Origin: an uncultured Clostridia bacterium | GTDB taxonomy: Bacteria > Bacillota > Clostridia > Christensenellales > Borkfalkiaceae | Length of the DNA: 64,000 nt | Direction of reading: 5' to 3' | NCBI GenBank assembly: GCA_944328665.1 | Contig: CALVHS010000052.1 | Span: 1-64,000, forward strand | Shown here: in pieces, positions 4,203 through 48,522 of the stretch | Layout: every line of letters starts with the position of its first letter | Position numbering within the stretch: the stretch's first letter is position 1 | Translations under genes and position numbers: made by a program | The notes under the pieces: model-generated | What the model saw: only the letters and a program-made list of their open reading frames with translations | Told to the model about the DNA's origin: nothing | The model's database searches: none

Positions 4203-4976
4203 TTACAGTGACGCGAAACAGAGGAGAACGAGCGAGAGCGCGATGAGGTAAACCGCATACCCGTACAAGTTCCCTCTTTTGACGCTGCCCGCGGCGAAGC
4301 GGAGCGCGGCAAAGCCGCAGACGGCGGCGGAAAGCGATCCGACGGCGAGGCTCTGCCAGGACGGGACGGCGCACACCGCGGGATCGGTGAGCGCTTTGAG
4401 CAGTTCCGCAAAGATCGCCCCGGCGATGATCGGGATGCTCATCAAAAAGGAAAAATCGGCGGCCTTTTCCCGCTCCGTTCCCGCCAAAAGGCAGGCGGAG
4501 ACCGTGACGCCGCTGCGGGAAAGTCCCGGCACCACGGCAAGCGCCTGCGCAAAGCCCGCCGTCCATGCCGTGCGCCAACCGACGGGGCGCAGAATGCGCG
4601 CCCGCTTTGCGCGGCGCTGCGCCGCCAGCAGGAGCGCCGCGGTCAGGGCGAAAAACGCCCACAGATATTTTCCGCCAAAAAAGAGGGCGTCTATCCGATC
4701 CCCGAAAAAGAATCCCGCCGCCGCCGCGGGCAGGGTCGCCGCCGCCAGATACAGGAGCATCTTCCGCTCCCCCTTTACGATCGCCTCGATCTTGGGAAAG
4801 TAGGCGAAGAGGACGGCAAGCAACGTGCCCGCGTGCAGCATGACGCCGAAAAACATCCCGCCGGGCGGCAGGCAAAGCAGCTTTTCAAACAAGATGATAT
4901 GCCCGCTGGACGAAACGGGCAAAAATTCCGTGATCCCCTGCACCATCCCCAAGACGGCAGCTTTCCAGATCTCCAT
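4203..4976 (-). CDS. uppP: Undecaprenyl-diphosphatase UppP (BacA family)
   Basis: 257-residue polytopic membrane enzyme that removes phosphate from undecaprenyl diphosphate so the lipid carrier can be reused in peptidoglycan and polymer synthesis. The family signature QGITEFLPVSSSGH is at residues 13-26, and GLSRSGVT followed by AGTEREKAADFSFL is in the second half. Both are diagnostic of BacA/UppP. The ATG at 4976 follows GGGGAGGGAG; the frame is open upstream to 5123 but without a ribosome binding site. Overexpression in this family gives bacitracin tolerance. Length is close to the usual ~270. Confidence 0.96.
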   Translation of the reverse strand: MEIWKAAVLGMVQGITEFLPVSSSGHIILFEKLLCLPPGGMFFGVMLHAGTLLAVLFAYFPKIEAIVKGERKMLLYLAAATLPAAAAGFFFGDRIDALFFGGKYLWAFFALTAALLLAAQRRAKRARILRPVGWRTAWTAGFAQALAVVPGLSRSGVTVSACLLAGTEREKAADFSFLMSIPIIAGAIFAELLKALTDPAVCAVPSWQSLAVGSLSAAVCGFAALRFAAGSVKRGNLYGYAVYLIALSLVLLCFASL

Positions 4977-5066
4977 GCGCTCCCTCCCCGTCTGTCTACT
5001 AATGTATGCCTGCATCGTCAAAAAAATAACGGGAACGCTTTTCTCGTCCGCATGGCGGAAAAATCC

Positions 5067-5095
5067 TTGCGGAAACGGAAAAAATTTAGTACAAT
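5067..5095 (+). promoter_or_regulatory. Probable promoter of the 5122 membrane protein
   Basis: TTGCGG and TACAAT are separated by 17 bp, with the -10 ending 26 bp before the ATG at 5122. The -35 is imperfect. Confidence 0.5.
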
Positions 5096-5121
5096 ATCGG
5101 AAAACCTCCGCGGAGCCGCGC

Positions 5122-6315
5122 ATGCTGGAAAAGATATTCGGAAAAAAGTCGACGGGCGTCGTCTATATCGTCTGCGCGAGCGTGCTGCTCCTCTCTTTGG
5201 CCGCATCGGCGCTCCTCTTTCTCGTCCGCTATCCGGATGCGTCCCTCTACGTCCTCTTTACGCAGGCGCTCGTGACAGTCATCTCCCTGGCGGCGATCAG
5301 CGCCCCCGTCTTTATCCAAAAGCGCTTCCGCTATTATATTCCGCCCTTTATCGAGATCGCGCTCTGCGCGTATGTGCTATTGTTCCTCCTGCTGCAGCGC
5401 GCACCCGAAAACGGCATGGTGCTTTACTCCTTTTTGCCCGCCTCCGGCGGCTTTATGCTGTCCATGGTGCTCTTTGCCGTCTTTTACTCCGTCCTTTCCA
5501 AACGGGCACAGGCAAAGGGCAGGCGCACGCCCCTGTTCCGTTCCGTCGCCGGCACTTTCGGCGCGGCGCTCGCGCTCATGGCGGCGCTCGGCGCCCTTGC
5601 GGCGCTCTCCTCCGTCATCATGAACGCGCCCCGCCCGCCCCTGCACGCCTCCCTGCTCTCCTTGGCGCACTATCTGCTCGGCAGTCTGCTCTTCTGCGCC
5701 ACGGGGTATTTTGCCGCGCGCTCGCACGAGGAACGCTTCCGCATCCGCAGCTTTAAAAATACGGAGAGCGCGGAACGGTTCGCGCTCGTAAAGAAGAACA
5801 GATCGATGTACACCGTCGTCGGCAATCTTTCCCGCGATACGACGGACTACCGCGGCGTCTTTCTGCGGGCAAAGGCAAGTTACTATACCGTGCGGATCGC
5901 CTATCTCGCCCTCTATGCGGGGTACATCGTCTTTTCCTGTATCACCTTTTGGGAACTGAGCGGCTGGGGGCAGGCGATCGCCTTTTTCCTCTGTTCGTCC
6001 TTCCTCTTCACGACCGCCGTCTATATCTATGAATATTTTCTCTTCCGCAAAAGGACGGTCAACCAGCGGCTGCGCAAGCTGAAGATCGCCAAGACGACCG
6101 CGCGCAGCTACTCGCTGCTGCTCATCCTCGCCGCCATGTATTTTGCGGACTTTCATTACAGCAGCCTGTCCGTCGTCCTCTCCGTGGGGATGCTCCTCTT
6201 TAACCTCTGTCTTCTCTTTTACAATCTGTTCGGCAAACCGCGCCGCTACCCGCCCGTCAAAAAGAAAAATAAAGAGGAAGGCGCGTGCGCGGAAAAAGAA
6301 AGCGGCAAGGAATAG
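5122..6315 (+). CDS. Polytopic membrane protein of unknown function
   Basis: 397 residues beginning MLEKIFGKKSTG, with about nine hydrophobic segments and a basic tail (VKKKNKEEG) that should lie in the cytoplasm. A central soluble loop around residues 205-245 contains RSFKNTESAERFALV. I recognise no family motif. The start at 5122 is chosen because the first membrane helix follows at once and a promoter lies upstream; the ribosome binding site is weak (CGGAG). It is divergent from uppP and convergent with gdhA, so it is probably a single-gene unit. Confidence 0.75.
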   Translation: MLEKIFGKKSTGVVYIVCASVLLLSLAASALLFLVRYPDASLYVLFTQALVTVISLAAISAPVFIQKRFRYYIPPFIEIALCAYVLLFLLLQRAPENGMVLYSFLPASGGFMLSMVLFAVFYSVLSKRAQAKGRRTPLFRSVAGTFGAALALMAALGALAALSSVIMNAPRPPLHASLLSLAHYLLGSLLFCATGYFAARSHEERFRIRSFKNTESAERFALVKKNRSMYTVVGNLSRDTTDYRGVFLRAKASYYTVRIAYLALYAGYIVFSCITFWELSGWGQAIAFFLCSSFLFTTAVYIYEYFLFRKRTVNQRLRKLKIAKTTARSYSLLLILAAMYFADFHYSSLSVVLSVGMLLFNLCLLFYNLFGKPRRYPPVKKKNKEEGACAEKESGKE

Positions 6316-44084: not shown

Positions 44085-44120
44085 TGAAAAAACTCCCCGC
44101 CCGCATAAACGCAGACGGGG
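44085..44120 (-). terminator. Terminator of the ferritin-like gene
   Basis: A 10-bp stem with two GU pairs (44095-44104 with 44111-44120) is followed on the minus strand by AG and six T. Confidence 0.8.
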
Positions 44121-44179: not shown

Positions 44180-45427
44180 TCATGCGCCCTTGATGCGCGC
44201 GACATCGGTATTATCCCTCTTTTCGTCCTTCAGTTCGCGGATCGGGTGCGCCTGCTCTTCAAAGCGGTAATCCCTCCCCGTCCTGCCGATGCTCTTTTCG
44301 ATGACCATATGGCTGGCAAGGGAATTGACGTTGCCCTGCACTTCGCGGTTGTAGGAAAAGAAGCGGTGCCTGTCCGGAAGTTTGTCTACCTCTTCAAACG
44401 TTTCGGCATTGCCGGAAAGGCGAACGCTTTTGAGCACTTCGCGGATATATTCCTTCTGCGGAGCGAAATGCAAAAGGGCGGGGAACTGCCCTCCCTCGGG
44501 GAAAAGCTGCTGCCACACCTTGCCGTCATAACGCTCTAAAAGCTCCGCCGCATAATGCAGATGTGACAGCTCCTCTTCAAAGTGCATCAGCCAGATGTCC
44601 TTGATGCGCTCGTCCGTCTCGTCCTCGTAGCAAGACCAATAGAGATAACACTCCGTATACTCATGCATGACCATACAGTCGAACATGCTGACGGTGGGAT
44701 CGGACAGGCAGCCATAGCCCGTGACGTGCTGTTCCTCGATCATAGCGATCTCCGAATACAGCTTTCTGCCCAATTCGCTGTCGTGCTGGTTGGCGATGTT
44801 GAGATAATAATTCATCGTCTGCTGCTCCGCCGCCGTGATGATGCCGACGTGCAGCCGCGTGAGCGGATCGTTCAAAAAGTTATTGATATAAAACCGGACA
44901 TCGTCGTACGGATGGCGAGGCTCGGACACCGTCGGACGCCCCGGCATGATCTCGGTATACCCGCCCACGAGCTTTTCCGCATGGATGCCGCGCTCGAGAT
45001 CCAAGAGGTCGGCATAGCGGTACAGATGATCGAAGTCCTCCAAAAGGGCGAAATCCAGCTGATGCTTGACATAGGCGTTCTTCTCCCGTTGGGCGAGGAT
45101 GGCGGTGAGGTCGACGGCAAGCTGTTCGTAACCGATGGTGTGTTCGAGCGCACTTTCCTCGATCGGCTTCAGGTTGGCGATGCGCTTTTGCTGCTGCTGT
45201 TCGCCGCGGCGGATCATCGCCATCGCGCGGCGCACGTCGTTGTTGGCGCAATGGCGCGTGAAGCGGGACGTGTTCCAGATCGCCTCGAATTCGGTGCCGT
45301 TCATGAGGATGACGCGCACCCTCGTATACGGATCGACCGTCTCCTTATCGTACGGCTTGACGTTGATGTTTTTCCAGTTTTTATAAATTTTTTCGATCGG
45401 TTTGGATCTTTCTTGGAACGGGTTCAT
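44180..45427 (-). CDS. Large ferritin-like protein with diiron-type motifs, function unknown
   Basis: 415 residues. The second half shows a full four-helix diiron set: Glu in TAAEQQTMNYYL, ExxH in MIEEQHVTGYG, Glu in MVMHEYTECYLYW, and ExxH in HFEEELSHLHYA. The first half has a partly similar set (EESALEHTIGYEQLAV, ALLEDFDHLYRY). I take it as two ferritin-like bundles, one complete. No family name comes to mind. It could bind iron or manganese, as peroxide-removing or storage proteins do. CAGGAGGAAGG precedes the ATG. Monocistronic and divergent from the MTAN-like operon. Confidence 0.8.
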   Translation of the reverse strand: MNPFQERSKPIEKIYKNWKNINVKPYDKETVDPYTRVRVILMNGTEFEAIWNTSRFTRHCANNDVRRAMAMIRRGEQQQQKRIANLKPIEESALEHTIGYEQLAVDLTAILAQREKNAYVKHQLDFALLEDFDHLYRYADLLDLERGIHAEKLVGGYTEIMPGRPTVSEPRHPYDDVRFYINNFLNDPLTRLHVGIITAAEQQTMNYYLNIANQHDSELGRKLYSEIAMIEEQHVTGYGCLSDPTVSMFDCMVMHEYTECYLYWSCYEDETDERIKDIWLMHFEEELSHLHYAAELLERYDGKVWQQLFPEGGQFPALLHFAPQKEYIREVLKSVRLSGNAETFEEVDKLPDRHRFFSYNREVQGNVNSLASHMVIEKSIGRTGRDYRFEEQAHPIRELKDEKRDNTDVARIKGA

Positions 45428-45488
45428 ACCTTCCTCCTGTTTTTTTTGAAATATTATGCCTATCCCGCCCTTTTTTTATACGGAAAAT

Positions 45489-45518
45489 TTGCAAAGGACG
45501 GGCAACTTGTGATAAAAT
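45489..45518 (+). promoter_or_regulatory. Promoter of the MTAN-luxS-ung-apgM operon
   Basis: TTGCAA (45489-45494) and TAAAAT (45513-45518), 18 bp apart, ahead of GGGAGGA and the ATG at 45543. Confidence 0.6.
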
Positions 45519-45542
45519 AGAGGGAGAAAACGGGAGGACGCC

Positions 45543-46226
45543 ATGCTCACTTTTATCGTCGCCATGCAAAAGGAAGCGGACGCGCTGCTGCGCTTTGCCG
45601 ACGGAGCAGACGCGCGCATGCTCTGCGGCAAGACCGTCTATACGGGCAGGGCGTTCGGCTCTGCATTCCGACTCATCCTGTCTGGCGTGGGAAAGACGAA
45701 CGCCGCGGCTGCCGCCATGCTCGCCGTCTCCGCATTCGGCGCAGAACGCCTCGTCAACTTCGGCATGGCGGGCGGCGTTTCGGAAGCGGCCGCCCCGGGC
45801 GCGGTGCTGCGCGCCGATCGCGCGGTGCAATACGACTTTGACCTGAGCGAGATCAACGGTACCCCGCGCGGCACCCTCGACGAATGCGGGCAGCCCTATT
45901 TTTTCCTCCCCTTTGCAAAGAGCGCCTTTCCGCGGGCGACCCTCGCCACGGGGGACAAACTGACCGATTCCCTCGCAGACCTCCCCGTCCTGCTGAATTT
46001 GCGCGCCGACCTGCGCGACATGGAGGGCGCGGCGATCGCGCACGTCGCCTCATTTACGGGCGTTCCCCTTTCCGTCTACAAAGCGGTATCCAACCGCATC
46101 GGGGCGGACAGCGTAAAAAAATACAACCGTCTGCAGAGCGAAGCGCTTAACGCCCTCTCAAAAAACATGCAGACGATCTTCGGAGAAAACGATGGAGAAG
46201 ATCCCTTCCTTTCAAAAGAACCATGA
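45543..46226 (+). CDS. MTA/SAH nucleosidase-family protein
   Basis: 227 residues of the purine-nucleoside-phosphorylase fold. VAMQKEADAL holds the first catalytic glutamate (Glu11), followed by SGVGKTNAA and FGMAGGV; DMEGAAIAHVA holds the second (Glu161). The loop that normally reads SD, with the catalytic Asp, reads VSNRIG here (Asn184). Together with luxS it should feed the activated-methyl cycle by splitting adenosylhomocysteine, but the Asp to Asn change may lower or alter activity. The gene overlaps luxS by 35 bp. Confidence 0.85.
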   Translation: MLTFIVAMQKEADALLRFADGADARMLCGKTVYTGRAFGSAFRLILSGVGKTNAAAAAMLAVSAFGAERLVNFGMAGGVSEAAAPGAVLRADRAVQYDFDLSEINGTPRGTLDECGQPYFFLPFAKSAFPRATLATGDKLTDSLADLPVLLNLRADLRDMEGAAIAHVASFTGVPLSVYKAVSNRIGADSVKKYNRLQSEALNALSKNMQTIFGENDGEDPFLSKEP

Positions 46227-46641
46227 TGAACTTCTGCCCGGCCTGTACATGAGCGTCACCGACGGCATCGCGACTTTCGACCTACGCTTCAAAAAGCCGA
46301 ACGCAGGCGACTATATCGCCCAACCCGCCCTGCACAGCATCGAGCATATGCTGGCGACCGCACTCCGAAACGGCAGCCGCAAAGAAGACATCGTCTATTT
46401 CGGCCCCATGGGCTGCCGCACCGGCTTTTATCTTTTGACCAAGCGCCTCGGCTACGAAGACGTGCTCGCCGCTCTCCTGGACGCCGTCGCCGTCTGCCTG
46501 ACGATGGACGGCGTGCCCGGCTCTGCCCGCAGAGAATGCGGCAACTATTTGGAGCACGACCTCGCCGGCGCGAAAGCCGAATTGCAAAAATACGGAGAAC
46601 TGCTCAAAAAACTCGCGCGCAAGGAGGAAAAACGGAGATGA
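46192..46641 (+). CDS. luxS: S-ribosylhomocysteine lyase LuxS
   Basis: 149 residues with all LuxS hallmarks: metal ligands in HSIEHMLATALRN (His48, His52) and ECGNYLEHDL (Cys116), and catalytic Cys75 in FGPMGCRTGFYLL. It splits ribosylhomocysteine into homocysteine and DPD, the precursor of autoinducer-2. It starts within the upstream MTAN-like gene (35-bp overlap) with no clear site of its own beyond GGAGAAAACG, so coupling is likely. Its stop overlaps the ung start (ATGA). Confidence 0.97.
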   Translation: MEKIPSFQKNHDELLPGLYMSVTDGIATFDLRFKKPNAGDYIAQPALHSIEHMLATALRNGSRKEDIVYFGPMGCRTGFYLLTKRLGYEDVLAALLDAVAVCLTMDGVPGSARRECGNYLEHDLAGAKAELQKYGELLKKLARKEEKRR

Positions 46642-47303
46642 TCAAACTCGGCGGCGGATGGGACGAAGCGCTGTCCCCCCTCTTTGCCAGCGAAAATTAC
46701 CGTAAGATCCGCGAATTTTTAAAAGAAGAATATTCGCACCATGTCGTCTACCCCGACATGTACGATATCTATAACTGCTTCCGCTATACCCCGTTCGACC
46801 GGGTGAAAGCGGTCATCCTGGGGCAAGACCCCTACCACAACGAGGGACAAGCGCACGGGCTGTGCTTTTCCGTGCAGGACGGCGTAGATCCCCCTCCCTC
46901 CCTCGTCAATATTTTTAAAGAGCTCAAAGACGACGTGGGCTGCACCCTTCCGAAGTCGGGCAACCTGACCAAGTGGGCGGAGGAAGGCGTGCTGCTTCTG
47001 AATACGGCGCTGACGGTGCGCGCCCACCGCGCCAATTCGCATAGGGACTGCGGCTGGACATGGTTTACAGACAACGTCATCCGCATCCTCGGCGAAAAGA
47101 GAGAACACCTCGTCTTTCTCCTTTGGGGCGCGAACGCCCGTTCGAAAAAGCCTCTCATCGATCAAAGCAAACACCTCGTGCTCGAATGCGCGCACCCTTC
47201 CCCCTTGTCGGCATACAACGGCTTTTTCGGATGCAGGCACTTTTCCAAGACGAACGCTTACCTCGCCGCACACGGCATCTCCCCCATCGACTGGCAATTG
47301 TGA
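46638..47303 (+). CDS. ung: Uracil-DNA glycosylase, family 1
   Basis: 221 residues. GQDPYHNEGQAHGLCFSV holds the catalytic Asp64, NTALTVRAHRANSH follows, and HPSPLSAYNGFFGCRHFS holds the intercalation loop. This is the full UDG family 1 set and usual length. It cuts uracil from DNA at the start of base-excision repair. ATGA overlap with luxS and GGAG within the luxS end. ApgM starts 10 bp downstream. Confidence 0.97.
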   Translation: MIKLGGGWDEALSPLFASENYRKIREFLKEEYSHHVVYPDMYDIYNCFRYTPFDRVKAVILGQDPYHNEGQAHGLCFSVQDGVDPPPSLVNIFKELKDDVGCTLPKSGNLTKWAEEGVLLLNTALTVRAHRANSHRDCGWTWFTDNVIRILGEKREHLVFLLWGANARSKKPLIDQSKHLVLECAHPSPLSAYNGFFGCRHFSKTNAYLAAHGISPIDWQL

Positions 47304-47313
47304 GGACAGACCC

Positions 47314-48522
47314 ATGAAATACATCGTAATACTCGGCGACGGGATGGCGGACTATCCCCTGCCGCAATTAAAGGGCAAGACGCCCCTGCAGGCCGCCGAC
47401 AAACCGCACATCGACGCGCTCGCCCGAAGGGCGGAAGTCGGGCTGTGCAAAACCATCCCCGACGGCTATGCGCCGGGCAGCGACGTCGCCAACCTCTCCG
47501 TGCTGGGATACGATCCCGCGCGCTGCTACACGGGGCGCTCTCCCCTCGAAGCCGTCTCCATCGGCGTCGGCCTACAAGAGACGGACGTCACGCTGCGCTG
47601 CAACCTCGTCACGCTGAGCGGCGAGGAGAGATACGAGGACAAGCGCATGCTCGATTACAGCGCGGGAGAGATCTCTTCGGCGGAAGCCAAAGAACTGATC
47701 GGCTTTTTAAAGAAATACTTTGACTGCGAGGACAGGACGCTGTACGCGGGCGTAAGTTACCGCCATTGCCTGGTCATGCACGGAGGCAAAACGGGACACA
47801 AACTGACCCCTCCCCACGACATTACGGGCAAGCCGATCGCGGGATATCTGCCGCAGGGGCCGGCGGGCGCGCTGTATCTTTCCCTGATGAAAAGATCGCA
47901 CGAACTTCTGCGCGGCCATCCCGTCAACAGCGCGCGCAGAGCGGCGGGAAAGAACACCGCCGACTCCGTCTGGTTTTGGGGGGAAGGTACCAAGCCCGCC
48001 CTCGAAAATTTTCAAAGAAAATTCGGGCTGCGCGGGTGCGTCATTTCGGCGGTCGACCTCGTCAAGGGGATCGGCATCCTGGCGGGGATGCGCATTATCG
48101 AGGTCGAAGGCGCAACGGGCAATTACGACACGAACTTTGCGGGCAAGGCGCAGGCGGCGCTCGCGGCGCTGCGCGGGGGCGCGGACTTTGTCTATATCCA
48201 TATGGAAGCCCCCGACGAATGCGGCCATCAAGGAGACCTCGCGCACAAGATCTATTCCATCGAGCAGATCGACAAACAGGTGGTCGGCCCCATCGCGGAA
48301 AGCCTGTCTGCCGGCGGAGAACCTTTCAAACTGCTGCTCTGCCCCGACCATCCCACCCCCATCGCCGTGCGCACCCACGTTTCCGACCCCGTGCCCTTCC
48401 TCCTTTACGACAGCGAAAAGCCGGGCCGCGGCGCGCATCGCTATGACGAGGAAGCGGCGGCAGGCACGGGCGTCTTCCTGCCGCAGGGATATATGCTGAT
48501 GCAAAAGATGCTGCAAGGGTAA
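47314..48522 (+). CDS. apgM: Cofactor-independent phosphoglycerate mutase, ApgM family
   Basis: 402 residues, alkaline-phosphatase fold. GDGMADYPLPQL (8-19) and the nucleophile serine in APGSDVANLSVLGYD (Ser56) start it; the metal-site HMEAPDECGHQGD and CPDHPTPIAVRTH follow. Archaeal-type aPGM is common in Clostridia; some relatives were proposed as homoserine kinases (ThrB2), and I cannot fully separate the two here. Last gene of the MTAN-luxS-ung operon and followed by a strong terminator. Confidence 0.92.
   Translation: MKYIVILGDGMADYPLPQLKGKTPLQAADKPHIDALARRAEVGLCKTIPDGYAPGSDVANLSVLGYDPARCYTGRSPLEAVSIGVGLQETDVTLRCNLVTLSGEERYEDKRMLDYSAGEISSAEAKELIGFLKKYFDCEDRTLYAGVSYRHCLVMHGGKTGHKLTPPHDITGKPIAGYLPQGPAGALYLSLMKRSHELLRGHPVNSARRAAGKNTADSVWFWGEGTKPALENFQRKFGLRGCVISAVDLVKGIGILAGMRIIEVEGATGNYDTNFAGKAQAALAALRGGADFVYIHMEAPDECGHQGDLAHKIYSIEQIDKQVVGPIAESLSAGGEPFKLLLCPDHPTPIAVRTHVSDPVPFLLYDSEKPGRGAHRYDEEAAAGTGVFLPQGYMLMQKMLQG

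Follow-up and report, generated by a model that had tools for sequence, protein, structure and literature searches.

Sulerythrin and ferriperoxin are homodimers of separate chains, in which four-helix bundles are completed by swapped pairs of helices and the two sites are alike, with the ligand pattern E, ExxH, ExxE, ExxH. In sulerythrin the ligands are Glu20, Glu53, His56, Glu92, Glu126 and His129, together with a fifth glutamate, Glu95 (PMC12833474). The sulerythrin mutation E126D changes one carboxylate bridge from a 1,3 to a 1,1 mode, and substitutions at the bridge are described as giving a shorter Fe-Fe distance and a higher reactivity toward O2 (PMC12851003). In rubrerythrin-like proteins, domain swapping is reported to be accompanied by short loops between helices alphaB and alphaC (PMC3317640).

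Here we analyze a gene from an uncultured Clostridia bacterium of the Borkfalkiaceae (GenBank assembly GCA_944328665.1), which lies in a stretch of 64,000 nucleotides (contig CALVHS010000052.1, positions 1 to 64,000; the window). Its product shares with sulerythrin and ferriperoxin the ligand pattern and, by prediction, bundles completed by swapped helix pairs, but a single chain holds two repeats and two unlike sites. It has five cysteines and no CxxC, and hence no rubredoxin (FeS4) domain, which the sulerythrin-type relatives lack too. The protein further differs from sulerythrin by Asp131 and Ala104 in one site (site B), by Gln79 in the other (site A), and by some 110 further residues at its C-terminal end. 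We hold with considerable confidence that the architecture is that of a duplicated, fused, helix-swapped double bundle. The family is ferritin-like, presumably sulerythrin-like in its working, and outside every narrower family tested.

The Gene and Its Flanking Signals

A first-pass annotation, made from the sequence alone, had marked a 415-residue reading frame at 44180-45427, and this frame is present on the minus strand (Table 1). A second long ORF, 44582-45520, runs antisense to it. When the gene is compared with four relatives, the mismatch fractions are 0.07-0.15 at codon position 1, 0.03-0.11 at position 2 and 0.40-0.54 at position 3, a distribution that fits purifying selection on the minus-strand frame, in preference to the antisense ORF. 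The minus-strand frame at 44180-45427 is a real gene under selection. Downstream of it there is one terminator-like hairpin, and shuffles of the same region give a mean of 2.1; the case for a terminator thus rests on the position of the hairpin, not on the count. Elsewhere in the window, the ORFs at 46192-48522 (+) resemble LuxS, uracil-DNA glycosylase and a phosphoglycerate mutase.

Table 1. Coordinates in the window of the gene, its flanking signals and the predicted parts of its product.
Feature	Position	Strand	Basis
CDS, fused double ferritin-like protein (predicted)	44180..45427	-	415 codons and stop
RBS AGGAGG, 5 bases 5' of the ATG	45433..45438	-	read in the sequence
Hairpin of terminator type with a T run behind it, about 60 bases 3' of the stop	44095..44120	-	
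Helices 1-2 (residues 33-84), predicted first half of bundle A; E46, E76, Q79	45176..45331	-	model, conservation
Helices 3-4 (residues 93-146), predicted bundle B; E101, D131, H134	44990..45151	-	model, conservation, bundle B folded alone
Helices 5-6 (residues 188-240), predicted bundle B; E201, E231, H234	44708..44866	-	model, conservation, bundle B folded alone
Helices 7-8 (residues 248-301), predicted second half of bundle A; E256, E259, E286, H289	44525..44686	-	model, conservation
C-terminal region (residues 305-415); predicted short beta hairpin at 337-346	44183..44515	-	model

Internal Duplication and Predicted Fold

Judged by their profiles, the two halves of the chain are genuine repeats, the product of an internal duplication. 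The profile of residues 26-160 can be aligned with that of residues 181-315 over 126 ungapped columns at an offset of 155 (hhalign, probability 62, P 7.5e-5), whereas the best of 20 column shuffles reaches P 0.02 and the reversed profile 0.4. The same offset is the best of 150 tried when the window protein is compared with itself, with 24 identities in 135 positions. The repeats are in the register E46=E201, E76=E231, Q79=H234, E101=E256, A104=E259, D131=E286 and H134=H289. A register that pairs E101 with E259 was dropped, since the ungapped repeat alignment pairs E101 with E256 and A104 with E259.

The AlphaFold model of the whole chain (pLDDT 94.7, pTM 0.92), for which the relatives used all share 55% identity or more with the query, has eight long helices at residues 33-58, 63-84, 93-114, 118-146, 188-214, 218-240, 248-269 and 273-301. 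When the model is compared with solved structures, single-bundle matches mostly span residues of about 27-304 or about 88-245, the aligner reporting the end points of a match only; the best Z is 13.3, and a Z near 13 can reflect a common helical arrangement. These spans fit a bundle A made of helices 1, 2, 7 and 8 and a bundle B made of helices 3-6. The assignment of helices 1-2 and 7-8 to bundle A draws on these ranges and on the concerted loss of site A in some members, as we discuss below. The model thus predicts two ferritin-like four-helix bundles in which the second half of each repeat is swapped. The linkers are short, 8 residues between helices 2 and 3 and 7 residues between helices 6 and 7. 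The matches listed include none to the fold over its full length: of the 50 structural matches, none aligns over more than 154 residues, and in Foldseek the longer alignments listed for the full chain have query TM-scores of at most 0.27.

Residues 86-247, which correspond to bundle B, were also folded alone (pLDDT 86.1, pTM 0.81). The 50 matches listed for this model, at Z 13.9-15.6, include mini-bacterioferritin, YciE, nigerythrin, FtnA and Dps. With Foldseek, neither the full-chain model nor bundle B had a match at E <= 0.001, and CopM and DUF305 bundles are among those listed for bundle B. The C-terminal region is shorter in the aligned non-clostridial members.

Covariation lends weak support to the swapped pairing of helices. 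In a sample of 176 sequences (about 110 effective), mutual information above z 3 marks 82 of 4998 swapped pairs, 43 of 4998 unswapped pairs and 54 of 5001 other pairs; the counts for Clostridia without the rows that lost site A are 74, 39 and 60. At z 5 they are 17, 8 and 9, the signal being weaker at higher cut-offs, and the non-contact pairing of helices 1-2 with helices 5-6 is raised too.

Two Predicted Metal Sites and the Loss of One

The ligand patterns point to a possible new diiron or manganese protein, and each bundle holds a predicted dimetal site that is most likely diiron. The ferritin-type bundles of the model carry paired glutamates with ExxH motifs, in a ligand set with two substitutions, Gln79 for His in site A and Asp131 for Glu in site B, which are conserved in the set of 176 sequences. 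Site A would consist of E46, E76xxQ79, E256xxE259 and E286xxH289, and site B of E101, D131xxH134, E201 and E231xxH234. If the sites are matched to sulerythrin by motif position, site A would retain glutamate at both bridging positions (E76, E286) as well as the fifth one (E259), with Gln79 in place of His56; site B would keep both histidines, with Asp131 in place of Glu126 and Ala104 in place of Glu95. By this analogy site B resembles a natural counterpart of sulerythrin E126D.

Conservation was read from 253 stretches, of which 7 under 370 columns were dropped (among them that of Pandoraea, aligned separately). The remaining 246 rows were thinned to 176 below 92% identity, 3 of them non-clostridial. 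The site B positions 101, 131, 134, 201, 231 and 234 are invariant in all 176 non-redundant and all 246 sequences, and Ala104 is invariant as well. In site A the common residue is kept in 176 of the 176 at position 46, 173 at 76, 174 at 79, 158 at 256, 173 at 259, 174 at 286 and 171 at 289. Among the 246 rows, 26 differ from the common residue in at least one of the thirteen site positions, always in site A; a pair of near-copies (L164 and L166) is changed at 76, 256 and 289. A distant relative (L174) has His at position 79, and Gln79 therefore looks derived in the sequences compared.

Two proteins have lost all but one residue of site A and kept every residue of site B. At positions 76, 79, 256, 259, 286 and 289, L240 (4951-6189 (-) of L269) has T, R, D, A, T and Q, and L251 (4793-6106 (-) of L270) has S, M, M, M, S and G. 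The two share 58% identity, and each is about 63% identical to its nearest relatives and is the sole copy found in its genome. The six lost residues come from both halves of the sequence and from one swapped bundle only, so these natural variants support the swap; if losses fell at random over the thirteen positions, all six would fall in site A with a chance of 0.004 per protein. In the drawn tree L251 groups with five rows that have site A intact (SH-aLRT 89), while L240 branches off at an unresolved fork, which suggests two separate events. A group summary of the tree puts both on the same side of one branch, but it disregards the 108 ungrouped rows, and the drawn tree was followed instead. 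Two losses of site A are thus likely on the sequences, and a single loss is the lesser possibility. A large ORF (L269: 1173-3299 (-)) lies about 1.7 kb from L240; it is presumably a serine recombinase.

The alignment ranges, the short linkers and the site A losses together led us to drop an arrangement with one domain per half, in which the E-ExxH sets pair within the halves. The first-pass annotation had described a two-domain ferritin-like protein with a complete ligand set in its second half and a partly matching one in its first. Both sets are there (second half: E201, E231xxH234, E256/E259, E286xxH289; first half: E46, E76xxQ79, E101, D131xxH134), and two four-helix bundles are predicted; the bundles are not the two halves, however, because helices are swapped between them, and the site that each half was thought to hold gives way to two mixed sites with residues from both halves. 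The search for an internal duplication and the structure prediction that it proposed turned up the repeat and the bundles, and neither a mismatch of fold nor a match to a known family arose.

Relationship to Known Families

The same annotation had placed the protein in no known family and seen a poor fit to catalase, rubrerythrin and ferritin, a reading upheld by profile searches. In Pfam the window protein has nothing below E 0.1 (best 0.16) and reaches no curated cut-off. Coat F (PF07875) scores 12.5 bits against a gathering score of 25.7, and there is no match to Rubrerythrin (PF02915; gathering score 22.8 bits), Manganese catalase (PF05067; 27 bits), Ferritin or DUF892. No NCBIfam cut-off is reached either; EncB (NF058679; 19.6 bits, E 0.00067) matches weakly over helices 7-8, far from its cut-off of 90. 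PADLOC has no match, PHROG one weak match of unknown function (E 0.054), and the PDB no sequence match below E 0.5. When the halves of the protein and re-ordered bundles were run against Pfam, there was no ferritin or rubrerythrin match.

Other members were searched through alignment A1, which holds 44 of 81 sequences (the window protein and 80 loci), L075 and L098 being left out because their match ranges cross a stop and the rest to limit near-copies; a further alignment, A3, holds 42 of those 44. Weak matches that recur among the 44 are to the iron exporter MbfA (20 members), EncB (9), encapsulin-associated ferritin (7), Metal_hydrol (7) and Rubrerythrin (3, best E 0.0035). We read the EncB, MbfA and Rubrerythrin matches as probable echoes of the superfamily.

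The sequence link to a named family comes through the distant relative L174 (genome G1123; 4496-5584 (+); 363 residues). It scores 145 bits with the family profile and, as a query, finds the same seven plasmid records as the window protein (E down to 6e-33). It also passes the Pfam Ferritin_2 cut-off (26.1 vs 24.7 bits), which ties the family by sequence to the ferritin-like superfamily. L174 falls just below the Rubrerythrin cut-off (22.3 vs 22.8 bits), and its halves match Rubrerythrin and Ferritin_2 below the cut-offs. It is shorter than the other members, has the His at position 79 and lacks the long C-terminal region; perhaps it is a second subfamily or an ancestral-like form.

Described ferritin-like proteins thus share parts of this design. 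Rubrerythrin has the same kind of bundle and accounts for some of the weak profile matches, but the present family is duplicated and fused and does not reach the rubrerythrin cut-off. The manganese catalase KatB matches the helical bundle (Z 13.3, 154 residues, rmsd 3.7), although the family has two bundles per chain. In EncB and EncFtn a half-site is likewise completed by another element, but the EncB profile is only 117 positions long, a fraction of the chain. Bacterioferritin, Dps and YciE/YciF (DUF892) match bundle B alone at Z 13.9-15.0 and, in the matches listed, are single-bundle chains, unlike the family; DUF892 genes adjoin the Tistrella and Pandoraea members. No description of such a fused protein was found in the literature covered, which left most subscription papers outside.

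Distribution of the Family

The family is widespread in bacteria and apparently unnamed. The gene has a match in 37 of 61 related genomes, the own genome included; 36 of these matches extend over at least 411 residues and one is cut by the end of a contig. Within the genus the gene is found in 31 of 37 genomes, and three Candidatus Borkfalkia loci (L030, L031 and L035) are 80% identical to the window protein. Although unnamed in the libraries searched, the family is matched in 223 of 396 genomes of the order (some matches split or partial) and is scattered across three phyla, with members in Clostridia, Actinomycetota and Pseudomonadota. Genomes sampled within the class give 18 matches in 391, including a weak one that covers 59 columns, and those sampled within the phylum 22 in 398, two of them partial and another from a distant relative. 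A scan of genome contigs confirmed at least 585 stretches, of which the best 80 were taken further. Wherever the records list a gene at the place of a match, the annotation is hypothetical protein. Two genomes carry two full copies, which are close in G208 (L252, L253) and diverged in G449 (L121, L122).

Seven plasmid records carry a member, which makes horizontal spread likely. The member in Subdoligranulum (one record) is 58% identical to the window protein, and those in Tistrella, Pandoraea (two records), Nonomuraea and Streptantibioticus (two records, one strain) are 39-42% identical. The carriers include L115 (Subdoligranulum variabile, OY725846.1) and L114 (Pandoraea), the latter beside many transposases. 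An origin in phages was considered and dropped, since no member was found in phage records and viral contigs gave one truncated locus.

Gene Neighborhood

In Clostridia no functional neighbor is conserved beyond close clades. An operon partner was therefore dropped as a candidate there, the largest neighbor family occurring in 26 of 100 loci, of which just 3 are numbered L044 or higher. With a hemerythrin profile built for the purpose, no hemerythrin was found in 80 clostridial loci with 768 kb of flanking sequence. Outside Clostridia, a hemerythrin gene adjoins the family gene in four of the five loci examined (one of the two Pandoraea records being included): both Nonomuraea copies, Streptantibioticus and Tistrella, where the hemerythrin domain forms a fusion with DUF892. 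In Pandoraea faecigallinarum, the genes that come after the family member encode a ferritin-like and a DUF892 protein. An ORF near the second Nonomuraea pair of hemerythrin and family member (L275: 6250-6624 (+)) is, we presume, STAS-like, of the anti-anti-sigma type, hinting at general-stress control. A mycobacterial hemerythrin-like protein acts in the response to H2O2, as reported in PMC4295536.

The own genome (92% complete) has four places with rubrerythrin domains on three contigs, and no match to hemerythrin or manganese catalase; hemerythrin is therefore no obligatory partner. In a search for a PerR box, not one of the 43 loci scored above base shuffles at the 0.05 level.

Proposed Function and Alternatives

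The following model is proposed. A tandem duplication of a ferritin-like unit, rubrerythrin- or sulerythrin-like, would have given a single-chain pair of bundles. In bundle A, helices 1-2 of the first repeat would join helices 3-4 of the second, and in bundle B helices 1-2 of the second would join helices 3-4 of the first, as if the two subunits of a domain-swapped dimer of the sulerythrin type had become a single chain. The invariant site B would be the catalytic one, and site A an accessory that some lineages can dispense with. By analogy with sulerythrin, the aspartate at the bridging position of site B may shorten the metal-metal distance and raise the reactivity toward O2. The protein would then act in stress, reducing H2O2, O2 or both to water with electrons from a donor.

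A peroxide- or O2-detoxifying diiron protein seems to us a reasonably probable function, and detoxification at diiron (or dimanganese) sites, mainly site B, is the most likely chemistry, as suggested by the ligands and the relatives. Taken whole, with swapped and fused bundles, dimetal sites and reduction of H2O2 or O2 mainly at site B, the model is the best explanation and, in our estimate, has slightly better than an even chance of being right. The lack of a conserved clostridial neighbor, of hemerythrin in the own genome and of a PerR box counts against it, and members with site B only weaken any model that needs both sites. If it holds, the family may help anaerobic gut bacteria to survive oxygen and peroxide, and Asp131 would seem to be the natural equivalent of a substitution engineered in sulerythrin for tuning its reactivity toward O2. 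With two unlike sites per chain and natural variants that have one, the role of each putative diiron site could be tested without an engineered heterodimer.

Dismutation of H2O2 to water and O2 at dimanganese sites, as in manganese catalase, needs no electron donor and is unlikely, though it heads the alternatives. KatB ties for the best structural match among those listed, L174 matches Mn_catalase weakly (E 0.01, 15.3 bits), no manganese catalase match turned up in the own genome and no electron donor is evident. The L174 score is, however, well below the cut-off of 27, the window protein has no such match and most structural matches are iron proteins. The usual catalase ligand set has neither an Asp at a bridging position nor a Gln for His, which also counts against this reading.

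Improbable, too, is a four-electron oxygen reductase, in which two diferrous sites would give two electrons each and convert O2 to two waters with no release of peroxide. Site B, with its Asp bridge, would activate O2 and site A supply the second pair of electrons, and the lineages without site A would now be two-electron peroxide reductases.

We regard as equally improbable a diiron oxygenase of the AurF or R2 type, with O2 as co-substrate for a specific organic substrate. Site B does resemble the subclass of diiron oxygenases with 1,1/1,3 bridges, as described for sulerythrin E126D (PMC12851003), and single members match AurF (E 0.086) and Ribonuc_red_sm (E 0.056) weakly. Most carriers found are gut Clostridia, however, where O2 is scarce; no biosynthetic neighbor is conserved, and the non-clostridial neighbors are stress-type genes for hemerythrin, DUF892 and ferritin-like proteins.

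A non-catalytic protein that binds or stores iron or forms a coat is very doubtful. Weak echoes of Coat_F and EncFtn speak for it, as does a structural match to a spore coat protein of Bacillus halodurans (Z 12.8), but Coat_F falls far short of its gathering score, the chain is much longer than the cage subunits of ferritin or Dps, and no site B residue varies in any of three phyla that include non-endospore-formers. Least credible is a wrong model with each half as its own bundle, since the linkers, the covariation, the predicted folding of residues 86-247 alone as one bundle and the two proteins that lost exactly the swapped site A all stand against it, even though both halves are complete four-helix repeats and both swapped and non-swapped rubrerythrin-like proteins are on record (PMC3317640).
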